IMG/VR virus record: IMGVR_UViG_3300020281_000024
Coordinates: 1-59,206 of that record
DNA from: a virus
DNA length: 59,206 nucleotides
Reading direction: 5' to 3' (one strand)
Shown: one piece after another, positions 1-59,206 of the stretch
Layout of the letters: each line of letters begins with the position of its first letter
Numbering within the stretch: position 1 is the stretch's first letter
Program-made: the position numbers and the translations under genes
Notes under the pieces: generated by a model
Databases searched by the model: none
What the model saw: only the letters and a program-made list of their open reading frames with translations
What the model was told of the DNA's origin: nothing

Positions 1-270
1 AGTGTAAGAATAGAAGATGCCACAATAAGTGGGTTGAACTCAAACCAAAATTTAAATTTAATTGCGCCTGGTACAGGTTCAGTGAGGATTGATGACTCAA
101 TGATAATAGAGAACATGGTATCAGATCCGCCAAAATACAACACAGGTGTCAAATTATATGCAAAAACTCCAGGCGGCGGAGGCACAGGATTAAATTTTGT
201 AAATACAAACGACTCAAGAGGAGAAGTAATCAGCACAAATAGAGCATTACTTTTTGGATTGATATTTTAA
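1..270 (+). CDS. Fibre-like virion protein, C-terminal fragment (5' end outside window)
   Basis: The reading frame is open from the first base to a TAA at 268-270, so this is the end of a longer gene cut by the window edge. The visible 89 residues contain two GTGSVRI(E/D)D-type repeats (S-V-R-I-E-D at the very start, G-T-G-S-V-R-I-D-D near residue 30). The same G-T/N-G-S-I/V-R-I repeat occurs near the C-terminus of the 1242-residue fibre at 4783-8511, which is the basis for the family call. A TTG at 34 could serve as a start, but the open frame upstream and the split repeat argue for a longer gene. It is followed after 9 bases by the next structural gene, which has an AAGGAG ribosome site overlapping this stop region. 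Confidence 0.6.
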   Translation, partial: SVRIEDATISGLNSNQNLNLIAPGTGSVRIDDSMIIENMVSDPPKYNTGVKLYAKTPGGGGTGLNFVNTNDSRGEVISTNRALLFGLIF

Positions 271-279
271 GGAGAAACA

Positions 280-612
280 ATGGCAATAACAAACGGTAAC
301 GTTGGAACAGGACAAACAGTTGACGTGTTAACTGTACCTGCAGGTAAAAGTTATGCTATCACTTCTGTGTTAATAACTAACACAGGATCAGAAGACCCAA
401 CAGGTGGGCAGGACAGTAGATTTTATCTATATGCTGTGACTGGTTCCTACACTGCGAATAATTCTATGATAGTCAATAATGCGGTACTTCCAGGAGCAGA
501 AACATTTACTTTAGACACTGAAAAATTAGTGTTGGGTGAAAATGACTCGTTAAAAGTTAGTGTGTCTGGTACAAACAGTGCATCAGTAGTAGTAAGTTAT
601 TTGGAGGTATAA
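280..612 (+). CDS. Small beta-rich virion protein (110 aa), paralogue 1
   Basis: A 110-residue protein with no signal peptide or membrane segment, built of alternating hydrophobic and polar residues typical of a beta-sandwich. Its C-terminal pattern (L-x-V-x-V-S-G-x-N-S-A-S-V-V-V-S-Y-L-E-V) is shared with the protein at 8518-8850 (N-S-L-N-V-Q-A-N ... V-L-S-Y-V-E-I) and more loosely with 21925-22245, so these form a small family placed next to each large fibre gene. AAGGAG at 269-274 is a good ribosome site for the ATG at 280. The stop overlaps the next start (TAATG), suggesting coupled translation. A fibre cap, connector or decoration role is inference from position only. Confidence 0.6.
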   Translation: MAITNGNVGTGQTVDVLTVPAGKSYAITSVLITNTGSEDPTGGQDSRFYLYAVTGSYTANNSMIVNNAVLPGAETFTLDTEKLVLGENDSLKVSVSGTNSASVVVSYLEV

Positions 613-1409
613 TGAGGTATCTCAAGAGACAAAGCACCAACAGAAGACTGTTGAGAGGAAAAGGCGTAATATACGATCAATATGAAAATATTGAAATCCA
701 ATCTACTGGAGCCTTGTTAATGCCTAAAGGTACGACAGCACAAAGACCAACTGCTGTTGTTGGACAATTAAGATACAACACACAAACAAAATCATTTGAA
801 GCATACGAAGATTTACAGAATGGTGGAGCAACTTGGAAAGAGTTTAGACTGGCTGAACCTGTTGCAATCACACAACAAAATTTAGGAAACGGTGACGACA
901 CGGAAGTAAACTTCGGAATATTAAATTCTGCATACACAGGTTATCTTGTACCATCAACTGCACAATCAATTTTAGTTATGGTGGAGAACGTTTTACAGAT
1001 TCCAAGCACAAACTACACATTAACACAAAATCCATGTGATGTCTCAAGCAATCAAGTAGGTGTAATTGGTAATTACAACGCAACCAATGTAGGTGCATAT
1101 GTAAGTAACAATACAAGTATCGTAGATTGGTTAGCAAAAGGATATCACGTGGGACAGACTATTGTAGTGTCAGGTGCGGCAACTACAAACAACAACGGAA
1201 CAAAAACTGTAACGGCTGTGACTGCCTCTCATTTAAGTGTTAACTCACTATTAGCCACTGAAACAAACAGCGGACAGGGAAACACTTTCGTTGTAGATGG
1301 CAAAAGTTCAATTACAGGTGCGTCATATCCAGCAGGAACATACATCACGTTTGGTACAGCAGTGCCTACAGGAAAGCCTGTTACTGTGCTACATAACTTC
1401 GACAAATAA
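612..1409 (+). CDS. Virion structural protein with T-A-Q-R-P/R-Y-N-T motif (265 aa)
   Basis: Starts at an ATG overlapping the previous stop, with GGAGG at 602-606 as ribosome site. Residues about 37-60 carry P-K-G-T-T-A-Q-R-P followed by G-Q-L-R-Y-N-T and F-E-A-Y-E. This motif recurs in the fibre genes at 1437 and 4783 and is common in marine myovirus tail and fibre proteins. The rest is Asn/Thr/Val-rich and predicted beta, with no catalytic motif seen. It sits between a small beta protein and a 1056-residue fibre, consistent with a fibre or collar component. The exact role is unknown. Confidence 0.6.
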   Translation: MRYLKRQSTNRRLLRGKGVIYDQYENIEIQSTGALLMPKGTTAQRPTAVVGQLRYNTQTKSFEAYEDLQNGGATWKEFRLAEPVAITQQNLGNGDDTEVNFGILNSAYTGYLVPSTAQSILVMVENVLQIPSTNYTLTQNPCDVSSNQVGVIGNYNATNVGAYVSNNTSIVDWLAKGYHVGQTIVVSGAATTNNNGTKTVTAVTASHLSVNSLLATETNSGQGNTFVVDGKSSITGASYPAGTYITFGTAVPTGKPVTVLHNFDK

Positions 1410-1412
1410 TCC

Positions 1413-1420
1413 AATAAATA
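1413..1420 (+). promoter_or_regulatory. T4-type late promoter motif (AATAAATA)
   Basis: AATAAATA matches the T4 late-promoter core TATAAATA except at the first base. It lies 16 bases before the ATG at 1437, with AGGAG at 1428-1432 between. The same core recurs before many genes in this window, which supports it as a promoter class. Confidence 0.6.
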
Positions 1421-1436
1421 CTAAAAAAGGAGTGCC

Positions 1437-23644: not shown

Positions 23645-24658
23645 ATGGCAAGTTTAACAACATTATTACAAACCAAATATGATTTTGCAGTAGGTAACGA
23701 GACTAACCTAGAGCAAGGAAGAATTTATCAGTACTATCCAGGCAGTGCTAGAGGCACAAACTTTAGATGTCACGTTTGTTTCGTGGCACCATCGGCTGGT
23801 ACAGCAACTATCGAGATATGGGGTGCTGGTGGATCAGGTGCTGAGATGTGTTGTTGTGGATTTGGATTAAACGGAAATCCAGGTGCATACAGTAAAAAAA
23901 CTTTAACAATGGCATCAGGCTGTTTCATTTGTGGAATAGTTGGTCAGTCATGTGGTAACGCAGATGACCTATGTCACAGAGGTACTTCGGAACCAACACA
24001 AATTTGTTGGTTTGCAGGTGGTACAGATGGATGTATGTGTGCCCAAGGTGGTAAGGGTGGTTACACTTATTGTTCAACTGGTAACTCACCATACTGTTGT
24101 TTCATAGCAGGCGGATTCTGCGGAACACAAGGTGGAGACCAATACTGCGGAATTATTTGTAACTTTAAAGATTCATCAAGTGAACCAACTTTCTGTGCTC
24201 AGGCATATGGCGGTGATACAAACTGCTACGGTGGGTTCAGTTGTTGGTATTTCAGAGGATGTCAACCAAACTGTAACTGTAGAAACGTTCCAGTAATTAA
24301 ATTCCCTCCAGGAATGATATCTACTTGTGGTGGAGAAGTTCATTACACATTAGATTCTGACAATGGTAGATCTCAATGGTCAGGAATGGGTGGTTGGATG
24401 AATGCCTCTCACGGATTTAACCTTGCAACAAGATCACCAACACAAGGTGGTCCATACACTGCTTGTTGGACAGGTAACAGAAGTTGTGGTTGTTATCAAG
24501 CCAATGGTTGTATACCTTTCATGCCAGCAGGTATAGGTGGACAAGGTCCAAGACCATGTGATGGCGTAAGAGATCACGCACACAGAGGTGGACATGGTTT
24601 AATTAGAATTAAATTTGTAAGTAGCACTAACGACTACGATTTAGATAGTGCACCGTAA
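23645..24658 (+). CDS. Cys/Gly-rich virion adhesin-like protein, copy 2 of 3 (337 aa)
   Basis: Second tandem copy, starting 9 bases after copy 1. The shared core includes W-G-A-G-G-S-G-A-E-M-C-C-C-G-F-G-L-N-G-N, C-M-C-A-Q-G-G-K-G-G-Y, C-G-I-I-C-N, C-W-T-G-N-R-S-C-G-C-Y and G-V-R-D-H-A-H-R-G-G-H-G. The middle third (about 175-260) and the last ~10 residues (S-T-N-D-Y-D-L-D-S-A-P) differ most from the other copies, suggesting a conserved scaffold with a variable receptor-facing part. Cysteine positions in the scaffold are conserved between copies even where other residues change, arguing that they are structural. Confidence 0.6.
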   Translation: MASLTTLLQTKYDFAVGNETNLEQGRIYQYYPGSARGTNFRCHVCFVAPSAGTATIEIWGAGGSGAEMCCCGFGLNGNPGAYSKKTLTMASGCFICGIVGQSCGNADDLCHRGTSEPTQICWFAGGTDGCMCAQGGKGGYTYCSTGNSPYCCFIAGGFCGTQGGDQYCGIICNFKDSSSEPTFCAQAYGGDTNCYGGFSCWYFRGCQPNCNCRNVPVIKFPPGMISTCGGEVHYTLDSDNGRSQWSGMGGWMNASHGFNLATRSPTQGGPYTACWTGNRSCGCYQANGCIPFMPAGIGGQGPRPCDGVRDHAHRGGHGLIRIKFVSSTNDYDLDSAP

Positions 24659-28115: not shown

Positions 28116-29948
28116 ATGAGCGACGATTTAACAAAATACAACAAGACAGGATACATTGCCGCAGTGGCCAGAGGTCATAATGCTGGAGTGTGTTTACTAA
28201 AAGATGGCAAAATAGTTTTTTCAATAGAAGAAGAAAGATTGTCTAGAAGAAAATATGACGGTGGACCATATGCTTCTATGTTTGAAATTTTAAAATACAC
28301 AGACAAGATAGATTATCTTGTAATTGCACACACACAATCATTAAAAGATCCTTCCACAGGAAGAGTAGACTACTCGGGAGATGATGTTTACACAGGTATT
28401 GCAAGAAAATTAGGATTAATAGATCCATACATACACAAAATTGAACATCCACAAGTGATTGACTTGTCACATATACATCACAAACTTCATGCGGCGTGTG
28501 CCTTTTATAGATCAGGCTTCGATAAAGCAGTTGCAGTAATTGTTGATGGTGCAGGAACATTTATTCCTATAAAAAATAGTGTAGCAGGTGATATGACAGT
28601 GTTTGAAGTTGAAAGTATATTCAGTTGTGATTATCCAAATGATATCTATGCATTATACAAACACTACGGAACAGGCACAGCAAGTCCAGGCGGTTATTAT
28701 CCTCACATGGATTCAGAAAGCATAAGCGAGCCTGGAAAAACACACGAAGCATTATTCACTGACAAAGCAGGAATAACAAAAACTTATGAAGCAGTAACTC
28801 AATACTGTGGATTTAGTGCCATCGAGGCAGGCAAGACAATGGGATTATTTCCTTACGGAAAACAAAATGATGTTATACCACCATTATTTCAAAAGGAAGG
28901 TAAATTTGAACTATCAAACAGAAACTTTATAATACCAACATATCCAAATGCGGCACAGGTGAACAGTCAGATTTATCCTTTTGTAGATGAAAATCCTGAT
29001 ACAGAGGACAGCAAAGACTGGACAAAAATGCAAAACAGAAGAGACATGGCTTACGCCGTGCAAAAAGAAACACAGAAACAGTGTTTGGATCTAATTTACA
29101 AAGCAGTACAGATGAGCGGATGTAAAAATGTTGTATTCTCAGGAGGTTATGGATTAAATTGTGTGGCAAATTATTATTATCTTGAAAGTTTACAAAAAGA
29201 CGGAATAAAATTATATGCTGAACCAGTGTCAAACGATGCGGGAACGGCTATGGGTGCGGCTATGTTGTTTTATTACAGCCTAACACAAACAAAAGAAAAG
29301 AAAGTAGATGCTCCAACTTTATATTTAGGACCAAAAAGAACATACACAGCAGAACAAATTAGTGAAATATGCCAAAGACCAGGCGTTGTTTTAGAAGATT
29401 GTGATGATTCGAAAGTTGTACAACTTTTAATTGATAAAAATATAGTATCAATATTCCAAGGACAAAGTGAAAATGGTCCTAGAGCATTGGGTAACAGAAG
29501 TATTTTATTTGATCCTAGATTCAAAGACGGTAAAGATTATGTTAACAGAGTTAAAAAACGTGAATATTTTAGACCGTTCGCTGGCACAATACTTCATGAT
29601 TATGTGCATGATTGGTTTGATCTACGTGGTATGGAAGAAACTCCACATATGATGTACGCTGTAAACTGTCAACCAGGAATAGAAGAGAAAATTCCTAGCA
29701 TAATACACGTTGATGGCACTTGTAGAATACAATCTGTGAAGCGTGAACAGAATCCTTTGTACTATGATTTAATCAAAGAATTTCATAAACAGACAGAATG
29801 TCCAATTATATTCAACACATCATTCAATTTAGGTGGAGAACCACTTGTAGAAACTTTGGAAGACGCTGTAAGAACGCTTCAGCACAGTGAAATTGAATAT
29901 CTGTACTTGCCAGAGTACAAAAAAATAGTAAAGGTTTTAAATGGATAG
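28116..29948 (+). CDS. Carbamoyltransferase, NodU/CmcH/TobZ family (610 aa)
   Basis: Full-length member. N-terminal Kae1-like domain: G-H-N-A-G at 20-24, I-E-E-E-R-L-S-R at 37-44, H-H-K-L-H-A-A-C-A-F at 121-130 (metal-binding histidines), V-D-G-A-G at 143-147. Later: S-G-G-Y-G-L-N-C-V-A-N; then the C-terminal YrdC-like/carbamoyl-transfer domain with S-E-N-G-P-R-A-L-G-N-R-S-I (about 452), Y-F-R-P-F-A, V-D-G-T-C-R and F-N-T-S-F-N-L-G-G-E-P. The family makes carbamoyl-adenylate from carbamoyl phosphate and ATP and transfers the carbamoyl to a sugar or antibiotic hydroxyl. It starts one base after the upstream glycosyltransferase stop and its end overlaps the next gene, so the three form one unit, probably modifying the transferred sugar (inference). 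Confidence 0.88.
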   Translation: MSDDLTKYNKTGYIAAVARGHNAGVCLLKDGKIVFSIEEERLSRRKYDGGPYASMFEILKYTDKIDYLVIAHTQSLKDPSTGRVDYSGDDVYTGIARKLGLIDPYIHKIEHPQVIDLSHIHHKLHAACAFYRSGFDKAVAVIVDGAGTFIPIKNSVAGDMTVFEVESIFSCDYPNDIYALYKHYGTGTASPGGYYPHMDSESISEPGKTHEALFTDKAGITKTYEAVTQYCGFSAIEAGKTMGLFPYGKQNDVIPPLFQKEGKFELSNRNFIIPTYPNAAQVNSQIYPFVDENPDTEDSKDWTKMQNRRDMAYAVQKETQKQCLDLIYKAVQMSGCKNVVFSGGYGLNCVANYYYLESLQKDGIKLYAEPVSNDAGTAMGAAMLFYYSLTQTKEKKVDAPTLYLGPKRTYTAEQISEICQRPGVVLEDCDDSKVVQLLIDKNIVSIFQGQSENGPRALGNRSILFDPRFKDGKDYVNRVKKREYFRPFAGTILHDYVHDWFDLRGMEETPHMMYAVNCQPGIEEKIPSIIHVDGTCRIQSVKREQNPLYYDLIKEFHKQTECPIIFNTSFNLGGEPLVETLEDAVRTLQHSEIEYLYLPEYKKIVKVLNG

Positions 29949-33287: not shown

Positions 33288-36200
33288 ATGGCTAAAAGAC
33301 GAATAAACGATTATAAATTTATACCAGGTATCCCTACAACAGGAAACCTATATCCTAATGCTTGGGCACAGATCAATGCCAACCAAGAATACTTGAAAGA
33401 TGAAGCAACGGCTTACATCGCTTCTAGAGTTACAACTGATACTGCTTATGATGCCTACCCTAACACATCAGCAAGAATTACAAACAACTTAGAATACATT
33501 AAGGCAGAAGTTGCGAAATATGTTGAAAATCAAGTTGCAGGAAACGTGGCTCCATTCGCGGGTTATGGTGGTTTATCTGCAAACATAAAACAGGATGTTG
33601 AAAAAGTTGTAAATGCCGCTTACAAAGATGCAAGATATGGCGGTAACGAAAGAATGAGAGCTCAGTCAAACACATACTACGTTGACGGTGTTTTACAACT
33701 AGGAGATCAAGGTAATCCAGAAATTGATTACTTAACATACGCAAGAAACTTAATTCATAGTTACATCTTAACTGGTGCGGCAAACTCTACAATTAACACT
33801 GAAGGTTTAACACAGAACACATCAGGTTCAAACGCAGAGTCGGCGGGACGTACATTGATGCAATCAAACATGAACGTTATTATCAATGCAATTGATAATG
33901 GCATACTGACGTTGCCGGCAGAAGTTATTTCGAGTTATCCTTTTGCAGATTACACTTATGACCCTTACCTTTGTGAAAGAGATATGGGTTACAACATCAC
34001 TGGTATACTGAAAGATTTAAGATATGGTGGTAACGAACAATCAAGATACAACGCAGGTACATATTGGAACGGCGAAGTTTCTGTTCTAACAGGAAACAGA
34101 CAGCCGGAAATACAGACAAAAAATGAAATAAGAAATATTATCAACAATCACATTATACCTGGAACTGCACACACAACAAAACAAAGTCCAGTTGTTACGC
34201 AACAAACAATATTAGGAAATGCAGGTGAAGCCGCGGCAAGTGGAAGAGTAACAACATTATTTGGAATAATCACAGATGTGATCCAAAATGGATTAGATAA
34301 TTTACCTACACAGATCAACAACGGAATATCAAGTGTAAAAATTCCAGAGAGAGTAGAATTAGCAGAATTATTATTGATCACAAACACCACAGACAACACA
34401 GTATTATACACGTTTAATGATTCGGCACAAGGTGCAACAGTAAGTTTCAAAAGAGAATATGAATCAGGAACTTCTAACACAACAGCATTTGTTGATCCAG
34501 ATTTTCCAAAAGCATATCATGGCAATGATGTAATCACAACTATATTTTTAAATGCAGATACATCTGCGGATAATGACACAGATGAATTACAAATATTTGT
34601 GGAAGATGATGAAGTAAGAACACGTCCACATGACTTTGGAACTGATGCAATTGAAAGACTTAGAGTTGCACAACCTGAATCAATGCTTGACGCTGACTTT
34701 GAATACGGTCTTCAGCCTACGAAGTGGCAAGCGATTGCAACACAAAGAGGTTATCCATCAATTTACGAAGTGCCAGGTACAGACTTTGATATTGCAACTG
34801 TGACTTCAGATGCTTCGGCAGGTACACAAGGTATTGGTTCATCTTTGATTACAGTGACAACAGTAGGACCACACAACTTTGAAGCAGGACAACCATTCAC
34901 AATTACAGGATTTAACAATGCAGTGACTGGTGCAAGTAGAGCCGCAGGTTCATTTGTTGTAAACACTATCATAAGTTCAACACAATTTACATATTACGCA
35001 AAGGCAAAAGTTGCTTCTGCAAATCCAACAACTATTTCTACAACAAATACGCAGTTAAGAGAAGGTAACTTCTATACAGGAGCGGCGATTGGATTTCCTT
35101 CTTTCAGTGTATCAAGTAACGGATCATCAGGATCTTTCACAACGGCTTTGAATGCATTAAGTGGTGCAAGTATTTTACCTTACACAGGAACAACTCCACC
35201 AGTTGGTGCTCCACTGTCAGGAACGGGTATTCCAACAGGTACACAGATTACTGGTGCTAACGGAGCCGGTGGTGCATTAGCATCTCCTAATGTTACAGGA
35301 GACTTTTTATCAGGAGTTACAGAAATCACAGTGGCAGATTCCGCTGGTATTGTACAAAACTCTGTAATCGATAGAGGTGACGGTTACGCAGTTGCAATCA
35401 CAAACATCGCAGGAAACAATTTAACTTTATCAAGTCCATTGGTACAAAACATTATTGGTGACATCACAAACTACACAGGACTAGCAGGTGTTAATTATAC
35501 ACCAGCAGGTCAATTAGCAACATTTGATATTTCAAGAGTTGGTGGTAACTACTCTGTTGTCATAGCGTCATCAGGTGAAAATTACACAGTAGGTGATGCA
35601 ATAGTAGTTCCAGGAACAAGTTTAGGTGGATCTACACCAGCCAATGATGCAACAGTTTTAGTAGAAAGCGTTGACACTGGTGGAGAAATTTTGACAGCAA
35701 GTATAAGTGGATCTGCATTCACAGGTACAGGAAATACAACTGGTACATCTCCAACATGGCAAGGTGGATTAGGACAAGGTGCACAAATTAATGTAACAAA
35801 AACTAACCAATCATACACAGTTGCATTAAATTCTCCAACTTACACAGGCACAGCAGTAGGAACTTTCCCAGGAGCGGCAGGTTCAAGTGCAACATTTGAT
35901 GTTGTTGCAACAGCAGGATCTTATTCTGCAAGTGTAAACGGAGCAGGTTCAGGATACATTGTCAATGATGTTATTAGAATTGACGGTTCAACATTTGGTG
36001 GTACAAGTGCCAACCATGCAAACATTAGAGTGACAGCAGTAACAGGTGGTGGAGCAATACAAACTATTTCAGTGTTAGGTACAGCGCCAGCACAGGAAGT
36101 AACTTACAACACAGTGGCGTTTACAGGTGGTAATGGAACATCAGCGGCATTCAACGTTACAAGAAACGGAACGACTTATTCGGCGGCAATTACAAGTTTA

Positions 36201-41496: not shown

Positions 41497-42101
41497 TACC
41501 AAACGTTCTCCCATAATTTAATAATTTTATCTGCGCCTTCTGGTCTTATACTTTTTGTAAGTTCGTCATGATGATTGGGCATATAATTCATGTTTATATT
41601 AATCCTACTTCTTTTATCTGTGCAAGTAGTTCCTGTGTGTTCCATATAACTAGGAAACACCACCATAGAATTTTCAACACTAGGCACTTTTGTTCCGTCT
41701 CTAAATTCAGTGTAACCATCAGTTGAGTTCACATAATATATCGCAGTGTAACTTAACACAACTCTAGTGTCTGCATGGAATCCGTGTTTTATAATTTTTT
41801 CAGTTCTTGGAATATTATTTGCTTTCACTCTCACAAATGTATTTGCTTTCAGCACGTTGAAGATTGGATACAACATTTCCCAATTACTCCATTCCGTTGA
41901 TACATCTGAAACTCCGTGAAAATTATGTACAAATTGTAACTGATCTTTATCTTGAGTCATTTTTTGTTTGTCTTCTACAACGTGTTCTGTGTAATACCAA
42001 GGAAAATGATCACTTAACATTTTATTTTGTATACGTTGTAATTCTTCTTTAGTAATTACGTTTGTACAAATTAATTTACCGTTTTCAATTCTTGTTTCCA
42101 T
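41496..42101 (-). CDS. 2OG-Fe(II) dioxygenase (201 aa)
   Basis: Jelly-roll oxygenase with the full iron and cosubstrate set: His109-x-Asp111 (G-F-H-A-D-T), distal His155 (Y-M-E-H-T-G-T), and Arg164 or Arg166 for 2-oxoglutarate. S-Y-T-A-I-Y-Y-V-N fits the central strand. These enzymes hydroxylate small molecules, sugars or proteins with O2 and 2-oxoglutarate. It lies between HldE-like and HldD-like genes, overlapping both (17 bases with the former, TAATG with the latter), so a sugar or nucleotide-sugar intermediate is a reasonable but unproved substrate. A different 2OG oxygenase is at 47630-48274. Confidence 0.75.
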   Translation of the reverse strand: METRIENGKLICTNVITKEELQRIQNKMLSDHFPWYYTEHVVEDKQKMTQDKDQLQFVHNFHGVSDVSTEWSNWEMLYPIFNVLKANTFVRVKANNIPRTEKIIKHGFHADTRVVLSYTAIYYVNSTDGYTEFRDGTKVPSVENSMVVFPSYMEHTGTTCTDKRSRININMNYMPNHHDELTKSIRPEGADKIIKLWENVW

Positions 42102-43338
42102 TGACCTTATCCACTATGTTTGTTGTTGAAAATCCTTTCACTGTTGGAAAAATTCTTACTTCCGCAAGATCATTCCCGACCACTGTGTCAAATGTGTAAT
42201 CACCGCCTTTTACAATTATGTTTGGCTCATACTTTTTAATTGCTTCTATCGGTGTATCTTCGTTAAACACAACAACTTTATCTACCCAAGGTAATTGCAG
42301 TAATTGTTGTTCACGCACAAATGAATTATTGAATGGTCTGTTTTGTCCCTTTAATCTTTTGACACTTTCATCGGAGTTAATGCCCACAATTAATTGATCT
42401 CCTTGTTGTTTCGCAAATTTTAATAATTTAAAGTGTCCTTCATGTAATATATCAAACACTCCATTGGTCCATACCACTGTGTCTTCAACATCTGATCTAT
42501 CAATTATTGATACTCCTCTTTTTTGTACAATTTTTTCTGCACCTTTTACCGCAAGTTCGCAACAATTAATCATTTTAATATTTTGAAAGTAATGTGCAAT
42601 AATGGCTAAAACAGAATCACCCGCTCCACTTACATCTGCAACTTCAACAGTATTGCTTTTGATATGGTCATACGAGTCTTTAGTTACAACGTGTATTCCG
42701 TTGGCTCCATCTGTAACAATAAGCCACGTCCATTCGTTGTCTTCACATCTCTTTTTAGCAATTTCAACGTCAAAATTTCCAAACCATGCTTCATATTCTT
42801 TCATATTTGGTTTAACTAAAAATGCTCCTATGTACTTGCTAAATCCTTGTTTTGGATCCACATAAACATTTTTGCATTTTTCTAAAATTTTCATCACAGT
42901 GTCCTTTTTGATCACTCCTTTATTGTAATCACTAACAATTACTGTGTCGTCTTCTTGCAAATCTTTTAATAATAATTCTAATGGTGAATCAGACGTATAT
43001 TTTTCTTCTTTGTCTACCCTGATAAGATGTTGTCCATTTTGTCCTATGATTCTAGTTTTGGTAGTGGTCATTATACCATCTTGGCACAGATGCGACTTTA
43101 CTCCATTTTGCAGTAAAATTTCTTGGATTTTGTGTCCGGGTATGTCGTTGCCCACGGAACCATAAAGCCACGTGTCTGTGCCCAAGTTTGATAGGTTTAA
43201 CGCTAGGTTTCCAGCGCCTCCAACGTTGAAGTCTTTGTTTGTTTCTTTAACTACAAGTACCGGTGCTTCTGGACTGACTTTTTGGCAGTCGCCCTGCGTC
43301 CACATATCAAGCATAACGTCACCGATGATTTTAATCAT
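42085..43338 (-). CDS. hldE: HldE-like bifunctional heptose-7-P kinase / heptose-1-P adenylyltransferase (417 aa)
   Basis: Two domains in the usual order. Residues 1-~285: PfkB/ribokinase fold with V-G-G-A-G-N at 39-44 and the catalytic anion-hole motif S-G-A-G-D at 237-241. Residues ~288-417: nucleotidyltransferase with T-N-G-V-F-D-I-L-H-E-G-H, the H-x-G-H signature at 299-302, then N-S-D-E-S-V-K-R-L-K-G, F-N-E-D-T-P-I-E-A-I, V-K-G-G-D-Y and S-T-T-N-I-V. Both active sites look intact; it is shorter than E. coli HldE (477). Expected reactions: D-glycero-D-manno-heptose 7-phosphate to the 1,7-bisphosphate, and heptose 1-phosphate plus ATP to ADP-heptose. The isomerase GmhA and phosphatase GmhB are not in this window. 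Start overlaps the Nudix stop (TAATG). Confidence 0.88.
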   Translation of the reverse strand: MIKIIGDVMLDMWTQGDCQKVSPEAPVLVVKETNKDFNVGGAGNLALNLSNLGTDTWLYGSVGNDIPGHKIQEILLQNGVKSHLCQDGIMTTTKTRIIGQNGQHLIRVDKEEKYTSDSPLELLLKDLQEDDTVIVSDYNKGVIKKDTVMKILEKCKNVYVDPKQGFSKYIGAFLVKPNMKEYEAWFGNFDVEIAKKRCEDNEWTWLIVTDGANGIHVVTKDSYDHIKSNTVEVADVSGAGDSVLAIIAHYFQNIKMINCCELAVKGAEKIVQKRGVSIIDRSDVEDTVVWTNGVFDILHEGHFKLLKFAKQQGDQLIVGINSDESVKRLKGQNRPFNNSFVREQQLLQLPWVDKVVVFNEDTPIEAIKKYEPNIIVKGGDYTFDTVVGNDLAEVRIFPTVKGFSTTNIVDKVNGNKN

Positions 43339-43782: not shown

Positions 43783-45240
43783 TTAGGATATCTTCCAGGT
43801 TCCTTTACGATATTCGCCTTCGAAACTTAAGATCCATTCACTACCATTCCACTTGTATTGGATACCAGTTTTTAAATTGGTAATGTATGTTGGAGTAAAT
43901 GTGCTGTCACCTGGATCAGGATTTGCACTTGCGTCAAAAATTATTTGCCAATTTGTGCCATTCCATTCAACTATGTCATTGGCACTTGCAACTAAATCGA
44001 TGTTACTGTCACCTTTCCAAGCATCTGCACCATCAACGTTTTGTGTGCTACCAATATCTTTCAATAATAGGACACGTTTTCCATTTTGTTTTATCGCACT
44101 TGGATTGAAAGTTGTCGGATCTACTATAAAGTCTACACTGCCTCTAGTATCTTGAGGACCAACAATCACTGTGTCTGTTGGAATAGTATCCATATCCCAT
44201 GTGACCAATATTTGCATTGGATTAGATTCGTTTAATGCAATAGTACCAACCACGGGCACATCTATACCTTCTCTATTCAATTGTATTTTGCTTAAACCTG
44301 CTTTGTAATTTGGAATAACATCAAGGTATCCATTCCATGCAAGTGAACCTATAACACCTTTGTCAATTATAGATACTGTTTGTCCAAGTACATAAATGTC
44401 GAACTGTGTTCCTGTTGTGCCTTGTACACTAGAAGTATCTTTACGTGCCGCAACACTGGTATCAATACTGCCATCAGCAGATGTTTTAATTGAAGCCTTG
44501 ATACTTTTTTCATAGTCGTCTTGGTAAGCCATTAGTTCAGGCATGGACTGACTTAGGTCAATGTTGCCTGTTTTTTCATTGAATATACTGGTAATAATGT
44601 GTGTAATGACTCCTAATTTTTTGACCTTAGTTGGAGGACTAATAAAGATTGGCATACTAAAACTTAATGTTGCAACATCTATTTCGCTTTCAGTTCCTAA
44701 AGGTATTGTTCTACTTGAAAAGTTTATATTATCTAATTCAACAACACTCAAACTTGTCCAATCAACGTAATTGTCTGTGGTTTGAATTTCTAAACTTGGA
44801 TTGAAAAGCATACAAATTTGTTCTAATATTTGTAATTTTTGTTCTGTGTTACTTGACCATATGTCACAATTCACTGTTAAAGTGTAAGGTGTTGGCATGA
44901 GTCTTTCCACAGTAACATTTTTTCCTTGGGTGTTTAGATATTCTTTATTTGTGCTGTCATATGCACGTTCTCTAACATGAATTTTACTGATAAAACTTGC
45001 ATCAGCCAACCTAGTTCTATCCATTGTTAAATTTGTTACATACACACCCATTCTAGGCACACTAGGTAATTTGTTTTCTGAATTGTCTCTGATTATGTGA
45101 CCGACCTGTCTACTGATGTCACCATACATCACTGGTATTGTCCGTAATGCATCATCTCCATCTTTGTAAGTGAAGTTACTCATAAGTCTGATCACCTGAG
45201 TAATGTATCTTCTAATCTGTCCATCGTAAAAATGTTGCAT
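43783..45240 (-). CDS. Tail sheath terminator/stabiliser, gp15-like, with C-terminal extension (485 aa)
   Basis: Residues 1-~230 follow the T4 gp15 pattern: F-Y-D-G-Q-I-R-R-Y-I-T-Q-V-I-R-L-M-S-N-F, I-P-V-M-Y-G-D, L-P-S-V-P-R-M-G-V-Y, M-P-T-P-Y-T-L-T-V-N-C-D-I-W, Q-I-L-E-Q-I-C-M-L-F-N-P, and an I-F-I-S-P-P strand. In T4 this ring-forming protein caps the tail tube and sheath and docks to the neck. T4 gp15 is 272 residues; this copy has about 200 more, including a C-terminal W-N-G-T-N-W / Y-K-W-N-G-S-E-W pair of W-N-G motifs, probably an added surface domain. Unusually it is on the minus strand in an operon with sugar genes. Start overlaps the upstream stop (TAATG). Confidence 0.75.
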   Translation of the reverse strand: MQHFYDGQIRRYITQVIRLMSNFTYKDGDDALRTIPVMYGDISRQVGHIIRDNSENKLPSVPRMGVYVTNLTMDRTRLADASFISKIHVRERAYDSTNKEYLNTQGKNVTVERLMPTPYTLTVNCDIWSSNTEQKLQILEQICMLFNPSLEIQTTDNYVDWTSLSVVELDNINFSSRTIPLGTESEIDVATLSFSMPIFISPPTKVKKLGVITHIITSIFNEKTGNIDLSQSMPELMAYQDDYEKSIKASIKTSADGSIDTSVAARKDTSSVQGTTGTQFDIYVLGQTVSIIDKGVIGSLAWNGYLDVIPNYKAGLSKIQLNREGIDVPVVGTIALNESNPMQILVTWDMDTIPTDTVIVGPQDTRGSVDFIVDPTTFNPSAIKQNGKRVLLLKDIGSTQNVDGADAWKGDSNIDLVASANDIVEWNGTNWQIIFDASANPDPGDSTFTPTYITNLKTGIQYKWNGSEWILSFEGEYRKGTWKIS

Positions 45241-49291: not shown

Positions 49292-52200
49292 ATGGCAATA
49301 GTTTCACCAGGAGTACAAGTCAGCGTAATTGACGAAAGTTTTTACACACCAGCCGAACCAGGCACGGTGCCAATGATCTTTGTTGCGACAGCACAAGATA
49401 AAACATCAAGCACAGGAACAGGAATAGCATCAGGAACAACAGCGGCAAATGCCGGCAAAGTGTTCTTAATGACATCTCAAAGAGAATTAGCAGAAACATT
49501 TGGAGATCCAGTATTCAAAACAGACGCAAGTAACAATCCAATCCATGGCGGTGAAACTAATGAGTTTGGATTACAAGCGGCTTATTCATTACTAGGTGTT
49601 AGCAACAGAGCGTTCGTTGTTAGAGCAGATGTAGACCTAGGTCAACTAGAAGCAAGTGCAAATGCACCAGCGGCAAATCCAGCATCTGGAACTTATTGGT
49701 TCGACACAGCAAGTTCAAGATTTGGTATATTCCAATGGAACGGATCAGCGGCAACTGTAACAGGTGGTCAATCATTCACAAACAAAATTCCAACAGTAAT
49801 CACATCAACTACACAATTATCATCAGGACTAGGAAGTGCACCAAAAACTTCAGTTGGTTCAATTGGTGACTATGCGATTACGGCTACAGATACAAACAAT
49901 GACGTATACTACAAACAATACGACGGAAGTTGGGTTGCAGTAGGTTCAGCGGCTTGGGTTGCATCAAGTCCAACAATAGCAGGTGGTACGCCAGGTACTA
50001 TCACAGGTGGTCAAACTTTTGATATCACTATCAACAGTGCGACTACTACTATCACAGCAAGTGGTACAACAGTTACAGATATAGCAAGTGATATCACGGG
50101 TGCTGGTGTTTCGGGGTTATCAGCAAGAGCAAATGGTGGTAAATTAGATATCCATTACAACGGTTCAAACGATAACAAAGTACAAATAGCAGATAACACA
50201 ATGACTATCGCAACTGCTTTAGGAATCACAGCAGGCATTTACTATGTGCCAGCAGTAGAAGTAGCGGCACACACTTCAGTACCAGCGTTCAAATCAAGTG
50301 ACGCAAATCCAAGACCAACAGGTTCATTATGGTTCAAAACAACTGATCCGAACCTAGGTGCTAAATGGAGTGTTAAAAAATTCAACGGCACAACTAAACT
50401 TTGGGAAACTGTAAGTGCACCTATCTACGCTTCAAACGAAAGTGCATTATACAATCTAGATAGATCAGGTGGCGGAAGAAATATTGCAGTTGGAGACCTT
50501 TATGTAAATTCAGGTAACGGAACAACTGAAATAGATTTCATTATACAAAGAAGAGAAAATGCAGGTAACACAACAATCACATCATCAGCGGTTGCAACAG
50601 GTCAAGGTGCTGGTAGCAAATCATTTACGATTGCAGAATCAATTGTAGGTCAAGAAGCATTAAACAGTGGAATCACTGTTACTGTTACAACAAACAATAA
50701 TGCCGCAGATGCTGACGTTATTGCAGGTGGTATCAACGGTGCAGGATTTACAAACATTGTGGCAAGTGTTGATTCACAAAACAGAGTTGTAATAGAACAC
50801 AATGATGGTGGTGAATTTAAAATTACTGATACAAACGGTTTAATTGAAGCAATTGGTTTAACAAACACTTCAACAAATTTAGGATTTGAACCAGGAACAA
50901 CTGCCGCAACAAATCCAAAACAATTCAGAGCAAGTAACTGGAAAGTGTTAAGTTATACTGCAAGTGCAAACGCAGTAACTTCATTGACTACAAACGGACA
51001 ATTATGGTACAGTTCGGTTGTTGACGAAGTTGACATCATGGTACACAACGGTACGACATGGAACGGTTACACTAACGTTTATGCAAATACAGATCCAGCA
51101 GGTCCACAAGTTTCCGCAACTGCGCCAACTACACAATCAGATGGAACAGCACTTGTTGAAAATGACCTATGGATAAGCACAGCAAATTTAGAAGAATATG
51201 CAGACATCTACAGATGGAATGCAAACAGTCTAAAATGGGAAGAAGTAGACAATTCAGATCAAACAACAGAAAACGGAATATTGTTTGCTGATGCAAGATT
51301 TGGAACTTCAGGTGGAACTTCAACAGTTGCTCCATCAGGCACTATTGCAGAATTATTATCAAGTGACTTCTTAGATCCAGATGCTCCAGATCCAGCATTA
51401 TATCCAAAAGGAATGTTGTTATGGAACTTAAGACGTTCAGGTTTCAACGTTAAAAAATTTGTAAGAAACAGCATTGACACAACAGCAACTAACCTAAGAC
51501 AAGGTGGTGCAAGTATGTCTGCTTACTATCCACACAGATGGGTAACTGAATCTGCTAACCAGGCAGACGGTGCAGGTTCTTTCGGAAGAAAAGCACAAAG
51601 AAAAGTTGTTGTACAAGGCTTACAAGCATTGGTTAACAGCAACCAAGACATCAGAGACGATGAATCAAGAATATTCAACGTAATGGCAACTCCAGGTTAT
51701 CCAGAGTTGATCGGTGAAATGGTTTCGTTAAACAGCGACAGAGGATTATCAGCGTTCATTATTGGTGACTCACCAATGAGATTGACACCTGATGCAACTT
51801 CTTTAGCCAACTGGGCAACCAACGTAAACCAAGCAGTTGAAGACAACGACAACGGTTTAGTTACAACTAACTCATACTTAGGTGTGTTTTATCCATCAGG
51901 ATTAACAAGTGACAACTTTGGAAACAACATTGTTGTACCAGCATCACACATGATGTTAAGAACTATTGCATTAAGCGATCAAGTTTCTTTCCCATGGTTT
52001 GCTCCAGCAGGAACAAGAAGAGGTGGTATTACAAATGCAAGTTCAACAGGTTACATCAACGCAGAAGGTGAATTTGTTTCAACAGCATTGAACGAAGGTC
52101 AAAGAGACACTTTATACACAAACAAAGTTAACCCAATTACGTTTATTACAGGTGCAGGTTTAGTCAACTACGGACAAAAGACTAGATTTGCTGGTACAAG

Positions 52201-52525
52201 TTCTTTAGATAGAATTAACGTATCAAGATTAGTAATTTACCTAAGAAGTCAATTGAACAAACTTGCAAGACCATTTGTGTTTGAGCCAAATGATAAAATC
52301 ACAAGAGATGAAATCAAGGCACAAGCAGAAAGTTTATTATTAGAACTTGTAGGTAACAGAGCAATTTTTGACTTCCTAGTAGTGTGTGACGAATCAAACA
52401 ACACACCTACAAGAATAGACAGAAACGAGTTGTACTTAGATATTGCTATTGAACCAGTCAAAGCAGTTGAGTTCATCTACATACCGTTAAGATTGAAAAA
52501 TACTGGCGAAATAGCAGGATTATAA
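49292..52525 (+). CDS. Tail sheath protein, gp18-like (1077 aa)
   Basis: N-terminus S-P-G-V-Q-V-S-V-I-D-E-S-F-Y (T4-type sheath start) and the conserved sheath C-terminus V-F-E-P-N-D-K-I-T-R-D-E-I ... F-L-V-V-C-D-E-S-N-N-T-P, then D-I-A-I-E-P-V-K-A-V-E-F-I-Y-I. The conserved core also shows F-P-W-F-A-P-A-G-T-R-R-G and G-Q-K-T-R. T4 gp18 is 659 residues; the excess lies in the middle (about 150-640), with Thr/Ser/Gly-rich insertions such as T-I-T-A-S-G-T-T-V-T-D-I-A and two similar 60-residue motifs (about 255 and 470), probably domains on the outside of the sheath. It has its own late promoter and a good ribosome site. Confidence 0.85.
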   Translation: MAIVSPGVQVSVIDESFYTPAEPGTVPMIFVATAQDKTSSTGTGIASGTTAANAGKVFLMTSQRELAETFGDPVFKTDASNNPIHGGETNEFGLQAAYSLLGVSNRAFVVRADVDLGQLEASANAPAANPASGTYWFDTASSRFGIFQWNGSAATVTGGQSFTNKIPTVITSTTQLSSGLGSAPKTSVGSIGDYAITATDTNNDVYYKQYDGSWVAVGSAAWVASSPTIAGGTPGTITGGQTFDITINSATTTITASGTTVTDIASDITGAGVSGLSARANGGKLDIHYNGSNDNKVQIADNTMTIATALGITAGIYYVPAVEVAAHTSVPAFKSSDANPRPTGSLWFKTTDPNLGAKWSVKKFNGTTKLWETVSAPIYASNESALYNLDRSGGGRNIAVGDLYVNSGNGTTEIDFIIQRRENAGNTTITSSAVATGQGAGSKSFTIAESIVGQEALNSGITVTVTTNNNAADADVIAGGINGAGFTNIVASVDSQNRVVIEHNDGGEFKITDTNGLIEAIGLTNTSTNLGFEPGTTAATNPKQFRASNWKVLSYTASANAVTSLTTNGQLWYSSVVDEVDIMVHNGTTWNGYTNVYANTDPAGPQVSATAPTTQSDGTALVENDLWISTANLEEYADIYRWNANSLKWEEVDNSDQTTENGILFADARFGTSGGTSTVAPSGTIAELLSSDFLDPDAPDPALYPKGMLLWNLRRSGFNVKKFVRNSIDTTATNLRQGGASMSAYYPHRWVTESANQADGAGSFGRKAQRKVVVQGLQALVNSNQDIRDDESRIFNVMATPGYPELIGEMVSLNSDRGLSAFIIGDSPMRLTPDATSLANWATNVNQAVEDNDNGLVTTNSYLGVFYPSGLTSDNFGNNIVVPASHMMLRTIALSDQVSFPWFAPAGTRRGGITNASSTGYINAEGEFVSTALNEGQRDTLYTNKVNPITFITGAGLVNYGQKTRFAGTSSLDRINVSRLVIYLRSQLNKLARPFVFEPNDKITRDEIKAQAESLLLELVGNRAIFDFLVVCDESNNTPTRIDRNELYLDIAIEPVKAVEFIYIPLRLKNTGEIAGL

Positions 52526-52551: not shown

Positions 52552-53178
52552 ATGAGTATATCTACACTATCAAAACTTACAGTTCCATTGAATAGTAGCC
52601 AAAGTGCTTCTAATCAAGGTCTGTTAATGCCTAAATTACAATATCGTTTTAGAGTAAGTTTAGAAAACTTTGGTGTATCAACACCTACAACTGAGTTAAC
52701 AAAACAAGTAGTAGATATCACAAGACCTAATTTATCATTTGAAACAACAACTATCGATGTATACAACTCTAAGGTATATCTTGCTGGTAAACACACATGG
52801 GAAGCAGTAACATTGACTTTAAGAGAAGATGTATCTAACAACGTACAAAAATTAGTTGGTGAACAATTACAGAAACAATTCGATTTCTTTGAACAAAGTG
52901 CGGCGGCATCAGGTTCAGACTACAAATTTGTTACTAGAATAGAAATAACAGATGGTGCTAACGGTGCCAATGTTGTAAACGTTTTAGAAACATTTGAATT
53001 GTATGGTTGCTACGTAGAGTCAGCAAACTACAATCAGTTAGCATACGGTACTAGCGATCCAGTTACTGTAACGCTATCATTGAGATATGACAACGCAATC
53101 CAAACTCCACAAGGTACAGGAGTAGGAACAGCAGTAGGTAGAACAACAAACACTCTAATTACAGGCGGCGGTGCATAA
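52552..53178 (+). CDS. Tail tube protein, gp19-like (208 aa)
   Basis: Recognised by length, position right after the sheath, and tube-fold pattern: Y-R-F-R-V-S-L-E-N-F, Q-V-V-D-I-T-R-P-N-L-S-F-E-T-T-T-I-D-V-Y-N, G-K-H-T-W-E-A-V-T-L-T-L-R-E-D-V, and the late strand E-T-F-E-L-Y-G-C-Y-V-E-S-A-N-Y. T4 gp19 is 163 residues; this copy has extra N- and C-terminal residues. It polymerises into the hexameric inner tube. It is followed by a strong terminator, fitting high-level expression of a major virion protein. Confidence 0.85.
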   Translation: MSISTLSKLTVPLNSSQSASNQGLLMPKLQYRFRVSLENFGVSTPTTELTKQVVDITRPNLSFETTTIDVYNSKVYLAGKHTWEAVTLTLREDVSNNVQKLVGEQLQKQFDFFEQSAAASGSDYKFVTRIEITDGANGANVVNVLETFELYGCYVESANYNQLAYGTSDPVTVTLSLRYDNAIQTPQGTGVGTAVGRTTNTLITGGGA

Positions 53179-54748: not shown

Positions 54749-54752
54749 TACA

Positions 54753-55723: not shown

Positions 55724-55731
55724 CGTACATA

Positions 55732-56175: not shown

Positions 56176-56176
56176 T

Positions 56177-56386
56177 ATGATAGAACAAGTTGTAGCCTTA
56201 TTGATGTTCGTAAATGGTGAAATAAAAGAACATCGGATTCAAGAAAATATGGCAGGATGCCTAAGAGGCAAACGTCATGCAGAAAGAAATTACAGTCCGA
56301 GTGTAAAGTATCAATGTTGGAAAGGCAAAGCCGAGACTGAGATTTACATGGGTGAAAAATCAATCAAAGCAATCATATTAGAATAA
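56177..56386 (+). CDS. Small conserved hypothetical protein (69 aa)
   Basis: 69 residues with two cysteines (M-A-G-C-L-R-G-K-R and Y-Q-C-W-K-G-K-A-E), basic centre and an I-K-A-I-I-L-E end. Only one base separates it from the upstream membrane protein, and its stop overlaps the next start (TAATG). The fold resembles no family I can name. Confidence 0.5.
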   Translation: MIEQVVALLMFVNGEIKEHRIQENMAGCLRGKRHAERNYSPSVKYQCWKGKAETEIYMGEKSIKAIILE

Positions 56387-56454
56387 TGGATAGATTAGTA
56401 TTTTGGTTAGTGGTTTTTGGTATAGCAGTCTATCTTGGCATATACGTTTGGTAG
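56386..56454 (+). CDS. 22-residue membrane micropeptide
   Basis: An ATG overlapping the previous stop (TAATG) opens a 22-codon frame ending in TAG at 56452-56454. The peptide (M-D-R-L-V-F-W-L-V-V-F-G-I-A-V-Y-L-G-I-Y-V-W) is almost entirely a single transmembrane helix with Asp/Arg at the N-end. Coupling to the upstream gene and the clean hydrophobic composition support translation. Size and topology resemble small membrane regulators or lysis-related peptides; the role is unknown. Confidence 0.45.
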   Translation: MDRLVFWLVVFGIAVYLGIYVW

Positions 56455-56459
56455 TCACC

Positions 56460-56467
56460 AATAAATA
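56460..56467 (+). promoter_or_regulatory. T4-type late promoter motif (AATAAATA)
   Basis: Core 15 bases before the gp16-like ATG at 56483; predicted leader of about ten bases without a ribosome site. Confidence 0.55.
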
Positions 56468-56482
56468 TTTTCAGCAATAGTT

Positions 56483-57025
56483 ATGACCAAAAAATTAGAA
56501 GAATTACTTAATCTGCCTGAGTCACAAGAAATTGTGCAAGAAGAAAAAGCAAAAGCAGAAGCCGAAGACAAAAAGGCTGAGGACAAGCAACAATCATTAC
56601 AAGCACAAAAGAATACAATGCGTGATATAGCCGAGTTTGACAAGATAGCGGCGGCTCTTCCTAAGGTGGAAGGTCTGGGAGAAATGGGTGATTCCGAGCT
56701 CGATGACGTCGGCACACGGGCGATAAATGCCTATGAGGATCTCATGGACTTGGGCATGAACGTAGAAAGCAGATACTCAGCACGTATATTTGAGGTTGCA
56801 GGACAGATGCTAAAGACTACTCTTGACGCCAAAGTTGCTAAAATGGACAAGAAATTGAAGATGGTAGACCTACAATTGAAGAAGCAAAAGCAGGATTCCA
56901 AGGCTGGAGATGGTGATGCAAACGTGATTCCGGGCGAAGGATACGTGGTCACTGACCGTAACAGTTTGCTGGAAAAACTTAAAAAGTTGGATAAATATAA
57001 TAAAGATGACAAAAATGACAAGTAA
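56483..57025 (+). CDS. Terminase small subunit, gp16-like (180 aa)
   Basis: Start L-E-E-L-L-N-L-P-E-S, then a long charged helix rich in Lys/Glu/Ala (about 20-50), a core with A-I-N-A-Y-E-D-L-M-D-L-G-M and S-A-R-I-F-E-V-A-G-Q-M-L-K-T-T-L-D, and a coiled K-M-D-K-K-L-K-M-V-D-L-Q-L-K-K-Q-K segment. The (R/A)-x-x-E-V-A-x-Q-M-(L/M)-K-T block is the most recognisable gp16 feature in marine T4-type phages. T4 gp16 is 164 residues; it binds DNA and regulates the large terminase. The large subunit follows two genes later. Confidence 0.75.
   Translation: MTKKLEELLNLPESQEIVQEEKAKAEAEDKKAEDKQQSLQAQKNTMRDIAEFDKIAAALPKVEGLGEMGDSELDDVGTRAINAYEDLMDLGMNVESRYSARIFEVAGQMLKTTLDAKVAKMDKKLKMVDLQLKKQKQDSKAGDGDANVIPGEGYVVTDRNSLLEKLKKLDKYNKDDKNDK
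56990..56997 (+). promoter_or_regulatory. T4-type late promoter motif (GATAAATA), leaderless class
   Basis: Lies inside the 3' end of the gp16-like coding sequence, eight bases before the ATG at 57006, without a ribosome site. Its predicted start falls about three bases before that ATG. Confidence 0.5.
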
Positions 57026-57599: not shown

Positions 57600-57603
57600 T
57601 AAT

Positions 57604-58044
57604 ATGGACATTAGAGATTTTTTAAAGAAAGTTGATAACATTCAAAACAAAGAGCAAATGAAAGCAGATGTGAAAAGAATTCACGTCAAAGAAGCCGCTC
57701 AGGTTATGTTGTATGGTGACACACCAGAAGAAATGAATGCTATCGCGGCAATTTTTAAGAATGCAGGTTTAACACCTCCGGCACCAATGCCTGAGCCTAA
57801 GCCAGCAGAAGAAGTTACTACACAAGAAGAAGTTCCAGGAAAAGCAAACACAACACCAAAACCTGAATACAAAGACACAGGTTATATGCAGAAAGATATT
57901 GCAGGTGGAATCAACAAGCCAAAAAAAATGTATAGAAAAGAATATCCAGGAGACAATCCTATGGCAGTTGAGACAGAAGACAAAACAAATTCTATCAAAG
58001 AAGAATTACAAAAAGCATACGAAGACTTCAAAAAAAAAGACTAG
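57604..58044 (+). CDS. Hypothetical protein with candidate -1 frameshift extension (146 aa, or about 200 aa if shifted)
   Basis: A longer in-frame frame begins at 57508 inside the previous gene, but M-D-I-R-D-F-L-K-K-V at 57604 is the natural start, next to a promoter-like motif. The N-terminus is helical (K-R-I-H-V-K-E-A-A-Q-V-M-L-Y-G-D-T-P-E-E-M-N-A-I-A-A-I-F), the middle Pro/Glu-rich, the end charged. The zero frame stops at 58042-58044 just after nine A's (58030-58038). Shifting back one base at that run opens 56 more residues ending at TAG 58206-58208, with a conserved-looking basic helical domain and no start codon of its own. Function unknown. Confidence 0.55.
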   Translation: MDIRDFLKKVDNIQNKEQMKADVKRIHVKEAAQVMLYGDTPEEMNAIAAIFKNAGLTPPAPMPEPKPAEEVTTQEEVPGKANTTPKPEYKDTGYMQKDIAGGINKPKKMYRKEYPGDNPMAVETEDKTNSIKEELQKAYEDFKKKD

Positions 58045-58208
58045 CGGAACGTCCACTCACTAAACCAGAAAAGCGTAAAGTCACACATTACAAAAAGAAA
58101 TTTGACAAGAAAAATGTCAAAAAAGACTTTATAAAACGTTATGGAAAAGAAAAAGGAACTGCGTATATGTACGCAACCATCAACAAGATGGCTAAAAAAC
58201 ACGCATAG
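58032..58208 (+). other. Candidate -1 frameshift site and extension domain
   Basis: A-AAA-AAA at 58032-58038 is a slippery heptamer in the correct zero-frame register. The -1 frame continues as R-L-A-E-R-P-L-T-K-P-E-K-R-K, then K-D-F-I-K-R-Y-G-K-E-K-G-T-A-Y-M-Y-A-T and K-M-A-K-K-H-A. The (K/R)-R-Y-G-K-x-K-G ... Y-A-T-x-x-K-M-A-K-K pattern is one I recall from other phage proteins, so the sequence looks like selected protein rather than chance. I see no upstream Shine-Dalgarno stimulator or strong downstream hairpin. A base-count error in the A run is the main alternative. Confidence 0.5.
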
Positions 58209-58237
58209 TCAATTTAATTTCTACCACCCTTTTACAG

Positions 58238-58245
58238 CATAAGTA
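58238..58245 (+). promoter_or_regulatory. Late-promoter variant CATAAGTA, leaderless class
   Basis: Five bases before the terminase ATG at 58251, the same variant base and same spacing as the motif at 26377-26384. No ribosome site is present. Confidence 0.4.
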
Positions 58246-58250
58246 CATAT

Positions 58251-59206
58251 ATGAGCAATAAAAGTTTAGATGGAGTATTAACCAAAAAAGCACACACAAG
58301 GGAAAAATTTTCGGAAGAACAAATACAAGACCTTGTGGAATGTTCCAATTCAAAAACTGGTTTCGAATATTTTGCTAAAAAGTTTTTCTACATACAACAC
58401 CCTGTAGAAGGCAAAATGCTATTCCAACCATTTGAATATCAAAAAAATTTACTTCACAGTTATCACGATCATAGATTCAATGTTAATATGTTACCAAGAC
58501 AAAGTGGTAAGACAACCACCGCGGCTTGTTATCTATTATGGTTTGCTATGTTCCATCCAGACCAAACAATTTTGATCGCGGCACACAAATACACAGGTGC
58601 ACAAGAAATTATGCAACGTATACGTTATGGATATGAACTTTGTCCTAATCATGTGAGAGCAGGTGTAATCAACTACAACAAAGGTTCAATGGAGTTTGAA
58701 AATGGTTCACGTATTGTTAGTGCAACCACAACAGGTAACACAGGTAGAGGTATGTCCATATCACTTCTTTACTGTGATGAGTTTGCGTTTGTCAATCCAG
58801 GTATTGCACAGGAGTTCTGGACTTCTATTTCACCAACACTTGCGACAGGTGGTCGTGCAATTATCACATCAACGCCCAACTCAGATGAAGATGTGTTTGC
58901 ACAAATTTGGAGAGAAAGTCAAAACAAATATGATGAACACGGTAACGAACAGGAAGTAGGACAAAATGGATTCCATGGTTTTACTGCCAGTTGGGACGAA
59001 CACCCTGACAGGGACGAACAATGGAAACAAGAAGAACTTGGTCGTATAGGTGAGGAAAGATTTAGAAGAGAGTATGGGTGCGAATTTTTAGTATTTGACG
59101 AGACATTAGTAAACAGTATTGTACTTTCCACATTAGAAGGTATACAGCCTATCGTTAACATGGGACAAACACGTTGGTACAAAAAAATGGATCCGCAAAA
59201 AACCTA
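58251..59206 (+). CDS. Terminase large subunit, gp17-like (5' 318 codons, runs off window)
   Basis: ATPase domain complete: adenine/N-terminal region P-F-E-Y-Q, Walker A P-R-Q-S-G-K-T-T at 82-89 (T4: R-Q-L-G-K-T-T), Walker B S-L-L-Y-C-D-E-F-A-F at 171-180 with Asp176 and catalytic Glu177, coupling motif I-T-S-T-P-N at 205-210. Then F-T-A-S-W-D-E-H-P-D-R-D and E-R-F-R-R-E-Y-G-C-E-F, the link towards the nuclease domain, which lies beyond the right edge. This is the motor that packages DNA into the prohead and cuts headful lengths. No stop before base 59206. Confidence 0.92.
   Translation, partial: MSNKSLDGVLTKKAHTREKFSEEQIQDLVECSNSKTGFEYFAKKFFYIQHPVEGKMLFQPFEYQKNLLHSYHDHRFNVNMLPRQSGKTTTAACYLLWFAMFHPDQTILIAAHKYTGAQEIMQRIRYGYELCPNHVRAGVINYNKGSMEFENGSRIVSATTTGNTGRGMSISLLYCDEFAFVNPGIAQEFWTSISPTLATGGRAIITSTPNSDEDVFAQIWRESQNKYDEHGNEQEVGQNGFHGFTASWDEHPDRDEQWKQEELGRIGEERFRREYGCEFLVFDETLVNSIVLSTLEGIQPIVNMGQTRWYKKMDPQKT

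Follow-up and report, generated by a model that had tools for sequence, protein, structure and literature searches.

The pentanucleotide GCWGC (GCAGC or GCTGC) is completely absent from a 59,206 bp stretch of viral DNA, IMG/VR record IMGVR_UViG_3300020281_000024, which was analyzed over its full length and is hereafter called the window. The window carries T4-type tail genes for gp15 (PF16724), a contractile sheath (PF17482) and a gp9/10-type protein, and on the basis of the first two it is a 59.2 kb piece of a marine myophage of the T4 superfamily. The absence of GCWGC is real, and there is good support for DNA-level selection against this very word. We consider it likely that this selection reflects long-term avoidance of a host restriction system that cuts GCWGC.

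Absence of GCWGC from the window and its relatives

The first-pass annotation, made by reading the window by eye, had claimed that GCAGC and GCTGC were missing while GCGGC was abundant and GCCGC repeated, and exact counts on the plus strand agreed (0, 0, 85 and 19 copies, respectively). Its view that zero lies far outside chance also held: base composition predicts 47 GCWGC sites, a first-order Markov model 54, and the second-order and maximal-order models 61 each. GCAGC was the most depleted 5-mer in the window, and GCSGC exceeded expectation (104 observed vs 63 expected). The codon choices that the annotation had described were observed as well. Although single alanine (Ala) residues are mostly encoded by GCA, which together with GCT accounts for 86% of them (892 and 258 of 1,343), all 93 Ala-Ala pairs begin with GCG (81) or GCC (12), and Gly-Ser pairs are written GGC-AGT (eight cases) and never GGC-AGC. 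A 267.8 kb relative (G001) shows the same usage, with 325 of 325 Ala-Ala pairs starting with GCG or GCC and 91% of the other Ala codons being GCA or GCT; one GCWGC-containing relative used GCA or GCT in 74 of its 77 Ala-Ala pairs.

We also permuted synonymous codons within each genome, keeping both the protein and the codon usage. The shuffled window genes contained 81.0 +/- 4.3 GCWGC sites (74.8, 2.7 and 3.5 in phases 0, 1 and 2) and shuffled G001 contained 305.8 (275.7, 18.4 and 11.6), whereas the observed number was zero in every phase of both. Thus, the effect crosses all reading frames, as had been proposed. Codon-pair bias within one frame, which the annotation had named as the explanation that could undo its claim, is insufficient because all three phases are empty against the shuffle expectation, and codon-pair bias could be ruled out as the cause.

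The window's gp15 gene was used as the marker for finding relatives and building a tree, and hundreds of relatives were present in IMG/VR. The closest named phages by gp15 (Agrobacterium phage Atu_ph07, Sinorhizobium phage Phosso and PA5oct) were only ~30% identical, and the major capsid protein of G001 shared 71% identity with its Phosso counterpart and 68.5% with the one in Vibrio phage 2.275; on these grounds the group is an uncultured marine branch of the T4 superfamily with jumbo-sized genomes. The GCWGC-free trait extends through the clade and is not unique to the window contig. Eleven fetched clade contigs (1.08 Mb) contained 0 GCWGC sites vs ~1,128 expected, and G001 contained 0 of 305, GCAGC and GCTGC being its sole missing 5-mers. 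Among the first 80 gp15 loci, the count was zero except in seven loci of one clade and L041, which were normal, and in L052, which has a single site close to the contig end. When free was defined as GCWGC at no more than 10% of expected, the 150-row gp15 tree held 65 free and 68 GCWGC-containing rows and two deep free clades, with ~5 parsimony changes, one of which was L052. DNA polymerase B neighbors gave the same pattern, polymerase identity to G001 being 80-100% in free contigs and 80-82% in containing ones, and the tail tube orthologue of G001 was 79-91% identical to the copies in free and containing relatives. Since there are two deep free clades and so few changes on the tree, the pressure on GCWGC appears to have been old and steady.

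Normal counts were found in the sister lineages, in the cultured relatives Vibrio phage 2.275 and Phosso, and in P-SSM2 and HTVC008M. Several lineages were partly depleted (observed/expected: 67/128 in G022, 45/86 in G023, 126/227 in G068 and 4/84 in G028), as expected if the pressure was sometimes lost or gained. The four GCWGC sites of G028 (loci L228-L231) lie at record positions 24563, 36971, 37079 and 60524; three of them occur in TTGGCAGC and the fourth in ATGGCTGC, which may be chance. In addition, more distant contigs reached via an AAA ATPase gene (L572-L574 and L552, one of them 132 kb) are GCWGC-free too and are perhaps further independent cases.

The lost GCWGC has been replaced by GCSGC and by neighbors such as ACTGC, and not mainly by the deamination products GTAGC/GTTGC (ratios of free to containing relatives: GCSGC 1.5-fold, ACTGC 1.36-fold, GTAGC 0.90 and GTTGC/GCAAC 1.07). 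A longer or flank-dependent recognition sequence was considered and rejected, as the sequence flanking the sites still present in half-depleted phages agrees with normal flanks. Selection on the word itself is argued for by the fact that the loss affects all frames, both strands and the whole clade, is independent of flanks in those relatives that are partly depleted, and carries no C-to-T decay signature.

Candidate agents in the phage and in the host

The agent might be a GCWGC endonuclease made by the phage, which would destroy host or competitor DNA and require that the phage's own unmodified genome be site-free; the nuclease gene would then be retained throughout the free clades, or occur everywhere with changed specificity. 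An absolute zero over a deep clade and many samples would suit an agent that travels with the phage, a protective methyltransferase would be unnecessary, and small nucleases do occur in the clade. We nevertheless regard this as rather unlikely in view of gene content. For every gene that the free phages G001, G003, G004 and G069 have in common, a homologue exists in at least one of the GCWGC-containing phages G068, G070, G022 and G023. Within the variable early region, gene families missing from the 50 containing loci occurred in at most 8 of the 25 free ones. Comparison of the G001 regions at ~135-268 kb, 10-135 kb and the variable first 10 kb revealed no gene family common to free phages and missing from containing ones, and no nuclease gene that was present in the former and absent or clearly different in the latter. 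In six Pfam scans, the proteins of G001 yielded no obvious restriction enzyme (in two of the scans, among the matches listed); nuclease matches comprised UvdE, a GIY-YIG protein, a 5'-3' exonuclease and a 3'-5' exoribonuclease domain. The SegE-type GIY-YIG protein (G001_120) was rejected as the trait gene because G068, with 126 GCWGC sites, has a 77% identical copy, and so was G001_023, an unassigned protein with a D...DxK motif that is confined to contigs of the G001 phage. G001_219, which adjoins the polymerase and seemed to track the trait, is of low complexity and was not detected in free loci L159 and L163-L165. HNH nucleases gave only weak sub-cut-off matches in G069, G071 and G075, the last of which (L358) contains GCWGC. 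A more specific version, in which a conserved phage enzyme with GCWGC specificity differs from its sister-clade homologues by specificity and not by presence, and the clade purged its own sites instead of modifying its DNA while the enzyme destroyed host or rival DNA, seems improbable to us.

Other explanations place the cause in DNA modification or in the data. A modification-dependent (Type IIM/IV) host enzyme could cut GCWGC once another enzyme has methylated it, so that the site would be poisonous in some hosts. GCWGC is a known Type IIM site whose counts were below expectation in 66.3% of tested genomes (PMC6286503), and modified GCNGC is cut by enzymes of the BisI family (PMC4926085). 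However, GCSGC, which is likewise a GCNGC-type substrate, is abundant in the window, and two host enzymes would be required, which leaves little room for this explanation. Mutational loss, in which GCWGC methylated to 5-methylcytosine (m5C) would deaminate to GTWGC/GCWAC during infection, is very improbable: bacterial m5C methyltransferases for GCWGC do exist (PMC8936443), but the deamination products are not enriched in free phages, the increase of GCSGC could not arise by deamination, and an exact zero would not be expected from mutation alone. Finally, the chance that the absence is an artefact of assembly, sampling or codon pairs is practically negligible. Ala-Ala codon pairs (phase 0) do hold most of the expected sites, but phases 1 and 2 of G001 are empty as well (0 seen vs 30 expected), and a single metagenome (3300020463) yielded both free L353 (0 of 22.5) and containing L394 (24 of 34) from the same phage group, so the absence does not stem from sequencing.

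Avoidance of a GCWGC-cutting restriction system would explain the exact zero, the frame independence, the rise of GCSGC, the lack of the tested methyltransferase families in the phages and the way the trait switches on and off between lineages. The GCWGC count lies below the expectation of both the Markov and the codon models, is zero in every frame and concerns a known Type II word, as restriction avoidance would predict. Complete or near-complete site elimination has been found in about one tenth of viral genomes, and avoidance targets orthodox Type II sites and is stronger in non-temperate phages (PMC6286503). GCWGC is recognized by TseI and by M.AbaBS3I, and an N4-methylcytosine (m4C) GCWGC methyltransferase has been verified in lake Chloroflexi (PMC6329791). 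The phage lineage may have long infected bacteria that cut unmodified GCWGC (TseI/ApeKI- or BbvI-type specificity), for which an orthodox Type II system would be the simplest. No m5C methyltransferase (PF00145) was matched in 22 phage records, including the 267.8 kb contig, and no N4/N6 methyltransferase (PF01555) in 14, these being the families searched; any phage genome that lacks both and carries a GCWGC site would be at risk. Sites would have been removed by point mutations, nearly all of them possibly synonymous, and new sites would be purged fast enough to give an absolute zero. A second, independent pressure may have cleared AGCT from two sub-lineages, including that of the window. The annotation had located the selection in the host and had listed cutting, nicking and a methylation-dependent signal as its possible target. 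Selection on the word stands. As to its source, a putative agent seated in the host is the most plausible reading left, since no gene of the phages follows the trait and many Nitrospinota avoid GCWGC. None of the evidence speaks for nicking or for a methylation-dependent signal rather than for plain cutting.

What points most strongly to an agent carried by the host is that a single depleted word is common to these phages and to many Nitrospinota, the candidate host. The 126.6 kb free phage G003 ends with a metabolic gene block that includes 2-oxoacid:ferredoxin oxidoreductase subunits; its korA gene is 87% identical to that of Nitrospinaceae and has no GCWGC in the phage copy, and the final 16.6 kb of G003 contains 0 GCWGC sites of 14 expected. 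Many Nitrospinota genomes hold GCWGC at 0-30% of expected (observed/expected: 0/25, 2/51, 4/24, 19/96, 13/59 and 22/74) with GCSGC at ~1.0-1.2, and in several of them GCWGC is the most depleted 4/5-mer; some Nitrospinota are normal, and Nitrospirota sampled around korA gave 1019/1009. Strong and specific avoidance was seen in Nitrospinota G048, G061, G041, G057, G058 and G053 and at loci L251, L259, L264, L269, L276, L438-L450 and L455.

Several results weigh against a restriction system of Nitrospinota as the cause. The annotation had suggested looking for a GCWGC methylase in candidate hosts. Many Nitrospinota avoid the word, but the depleted metagenome-assembled genomes yielded neither a cognate restriction-modification pair nor an m5C or N4/N6 methyltransferase consistent among them. 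G048, G053 and G057 matched neither PF00145 nor PF01555, and the methyltransferases in the remaining depleted genomes did not form one group. GCWGC counts are normal in six further viral contigs whose korA is Nitrospinota-like, the Nitrospinota genome nearest by korA (G036) is not depleted (20/18), and the phage tail tube, used as bait, found no homologue in 77 Nitrospinota genomes. It should also be noted that the free clade was drawn from many samples, for which a single host group with a single enzyme is not self-evident. Taken as a lead, Nitrospinota (marine nitrite oxidizers) are therefore a tentative candidate for the host of the clade, and one that we hold to be possible more than probable. 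Two further comparisons were discarded as host links: phage tRNA-Arg matched Nitrospinota at up to 93% over 59 bases, which was not discriminating, and the aldehyde dehydrogenase of G003, 62% identical to Nitrospinota, was not informative.

Other T4-like contigs also carry 2-oxoacid:ferredoxin oxidoreductase genes (the last ~16 kb of L107, IMGVR_UViG_3300006339_000005, and L576-L581). Their korA is 75-91% identical to the G003 copy, and some have ferredoxin and iron-sulfur assembly genes. These are candidate reverse tricarboxylic acid cycle genes in phages of marine nitrite oxidizers.

Other depleted words and genes of the window

As a 4-mer, AGCT is more strongly depleted in the window in absolute terms than GCWGC (2 observed vs 101 expected). 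Other low words were GGCC (11 vs 61), CATG (109 vs 205) and GGTACC (0 vs 15). On the 150-row tree the AGCT state changes twice and switches independently of GCWGC. AGCT counts were 0/179, 0/135 and 0/176 in G026, G030 and G028, which belong to sub-lineages of GCWGC-free or nearly free phages and have close relatives with normal counts; comparison of these three with the rest gave no candidate gene for an AGCT-specific nuclease. A second enzyme like the one proposed for GCWGC would fit this independent behavior of AGCT.

The annotated features are listed in Table 1. The HldE-like heptose gene suggests, from its predicted function, a Gram-negative host. G001 (a 267.8 kb phage; L089-L095) additionally encodes GTP cyclohydrolase I, a PTPS/QueD-type protein, a tryptophan halogenase-like protein and several radical SAM and 2-oxoglutarate (2OG)-oxygenase genes.

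Table 1. Location of words and genes in the window
Feature	Position	Strand	Basis
GCWGC (GCAGC/GCTGC) wholly absent, both strands; GCSGC over-represented	1..59206		exact counts
Carbamoyltransferase, cargo gene within structural region	28116..29948	+	PF02543/PF16861
AGCT site, one of two	33659..33662		exact count, ~101 expected
HldE-like bifunctional kinase/cytidylyltransferase, heptose gene	42085..43338	-	PfkB + CTP_transf_like; function inferred from domains
T4 gp15-like tail sheath stabilizer	43783..45240	-	PF16724, E 5e-24
Contractile tail sheath protein	49292..52525	+	PF17482; homologues in relatives
Tail tube-like protein	52552..53178	+	function inferred from gene order
AGCT site, second of two	56697..56700		exact count, ~101 expected

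Relation to known systems and significance

Escape by loss of sites is already known, and the present case is notable for its exactness, its depth on the tree and the parallel in Nitrospinota. Genomes of the Staphylococcus phage K type are reported to lack GATC completely, with the host and enzyme (Sau3A type) known. They resemble the present clade as a large myophage group in whose genomes a short palindromic word that is cut by a host enzyme never occurs; the motif, the phage group and the probable host are different here, and a second motif, AGCT, switches independently. Endonuclease II (DenA) of phage T4 is a phage-encoded site-specific nuclease directed at host DNA, from which T4 protects itself by modified cytosine. 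Similar self-sparing would explain avoidance without host restriction; however, T4 has modified cytosine, and here no phage gene tracks the GCWGC-free trait. The closest general likeness is to restriction-site avoidance in non-temperate double-stranded DNA phages, in which a Type II word is eliminated from the phage genome (Rusinov et al., 2018; PMC6286503). In contrast with that survey, the zero found here is exact over more than 1 Mb and extends through a deep clade of uncultured phages, for which the host enzyme is putative. A limited literature search found no published account of GCWGC loss in the present clade.

The zero provides a sharp, computable signature of the clade that can be matched to host genomes, which makes host prediction testable for an uncultured group of the T4 superfamily. 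Its strictness over a deep lineage would mean that a single DNA specificity has acted on these phages over a long, unbroken period, which is unusual given that restriction systems are as a rule gained and lost. The parallel in Nitrospinota offers a concrete candidate host among the main marine nitrite oxidizers and suggests that a GCWGC-targeting system may be widespread there.

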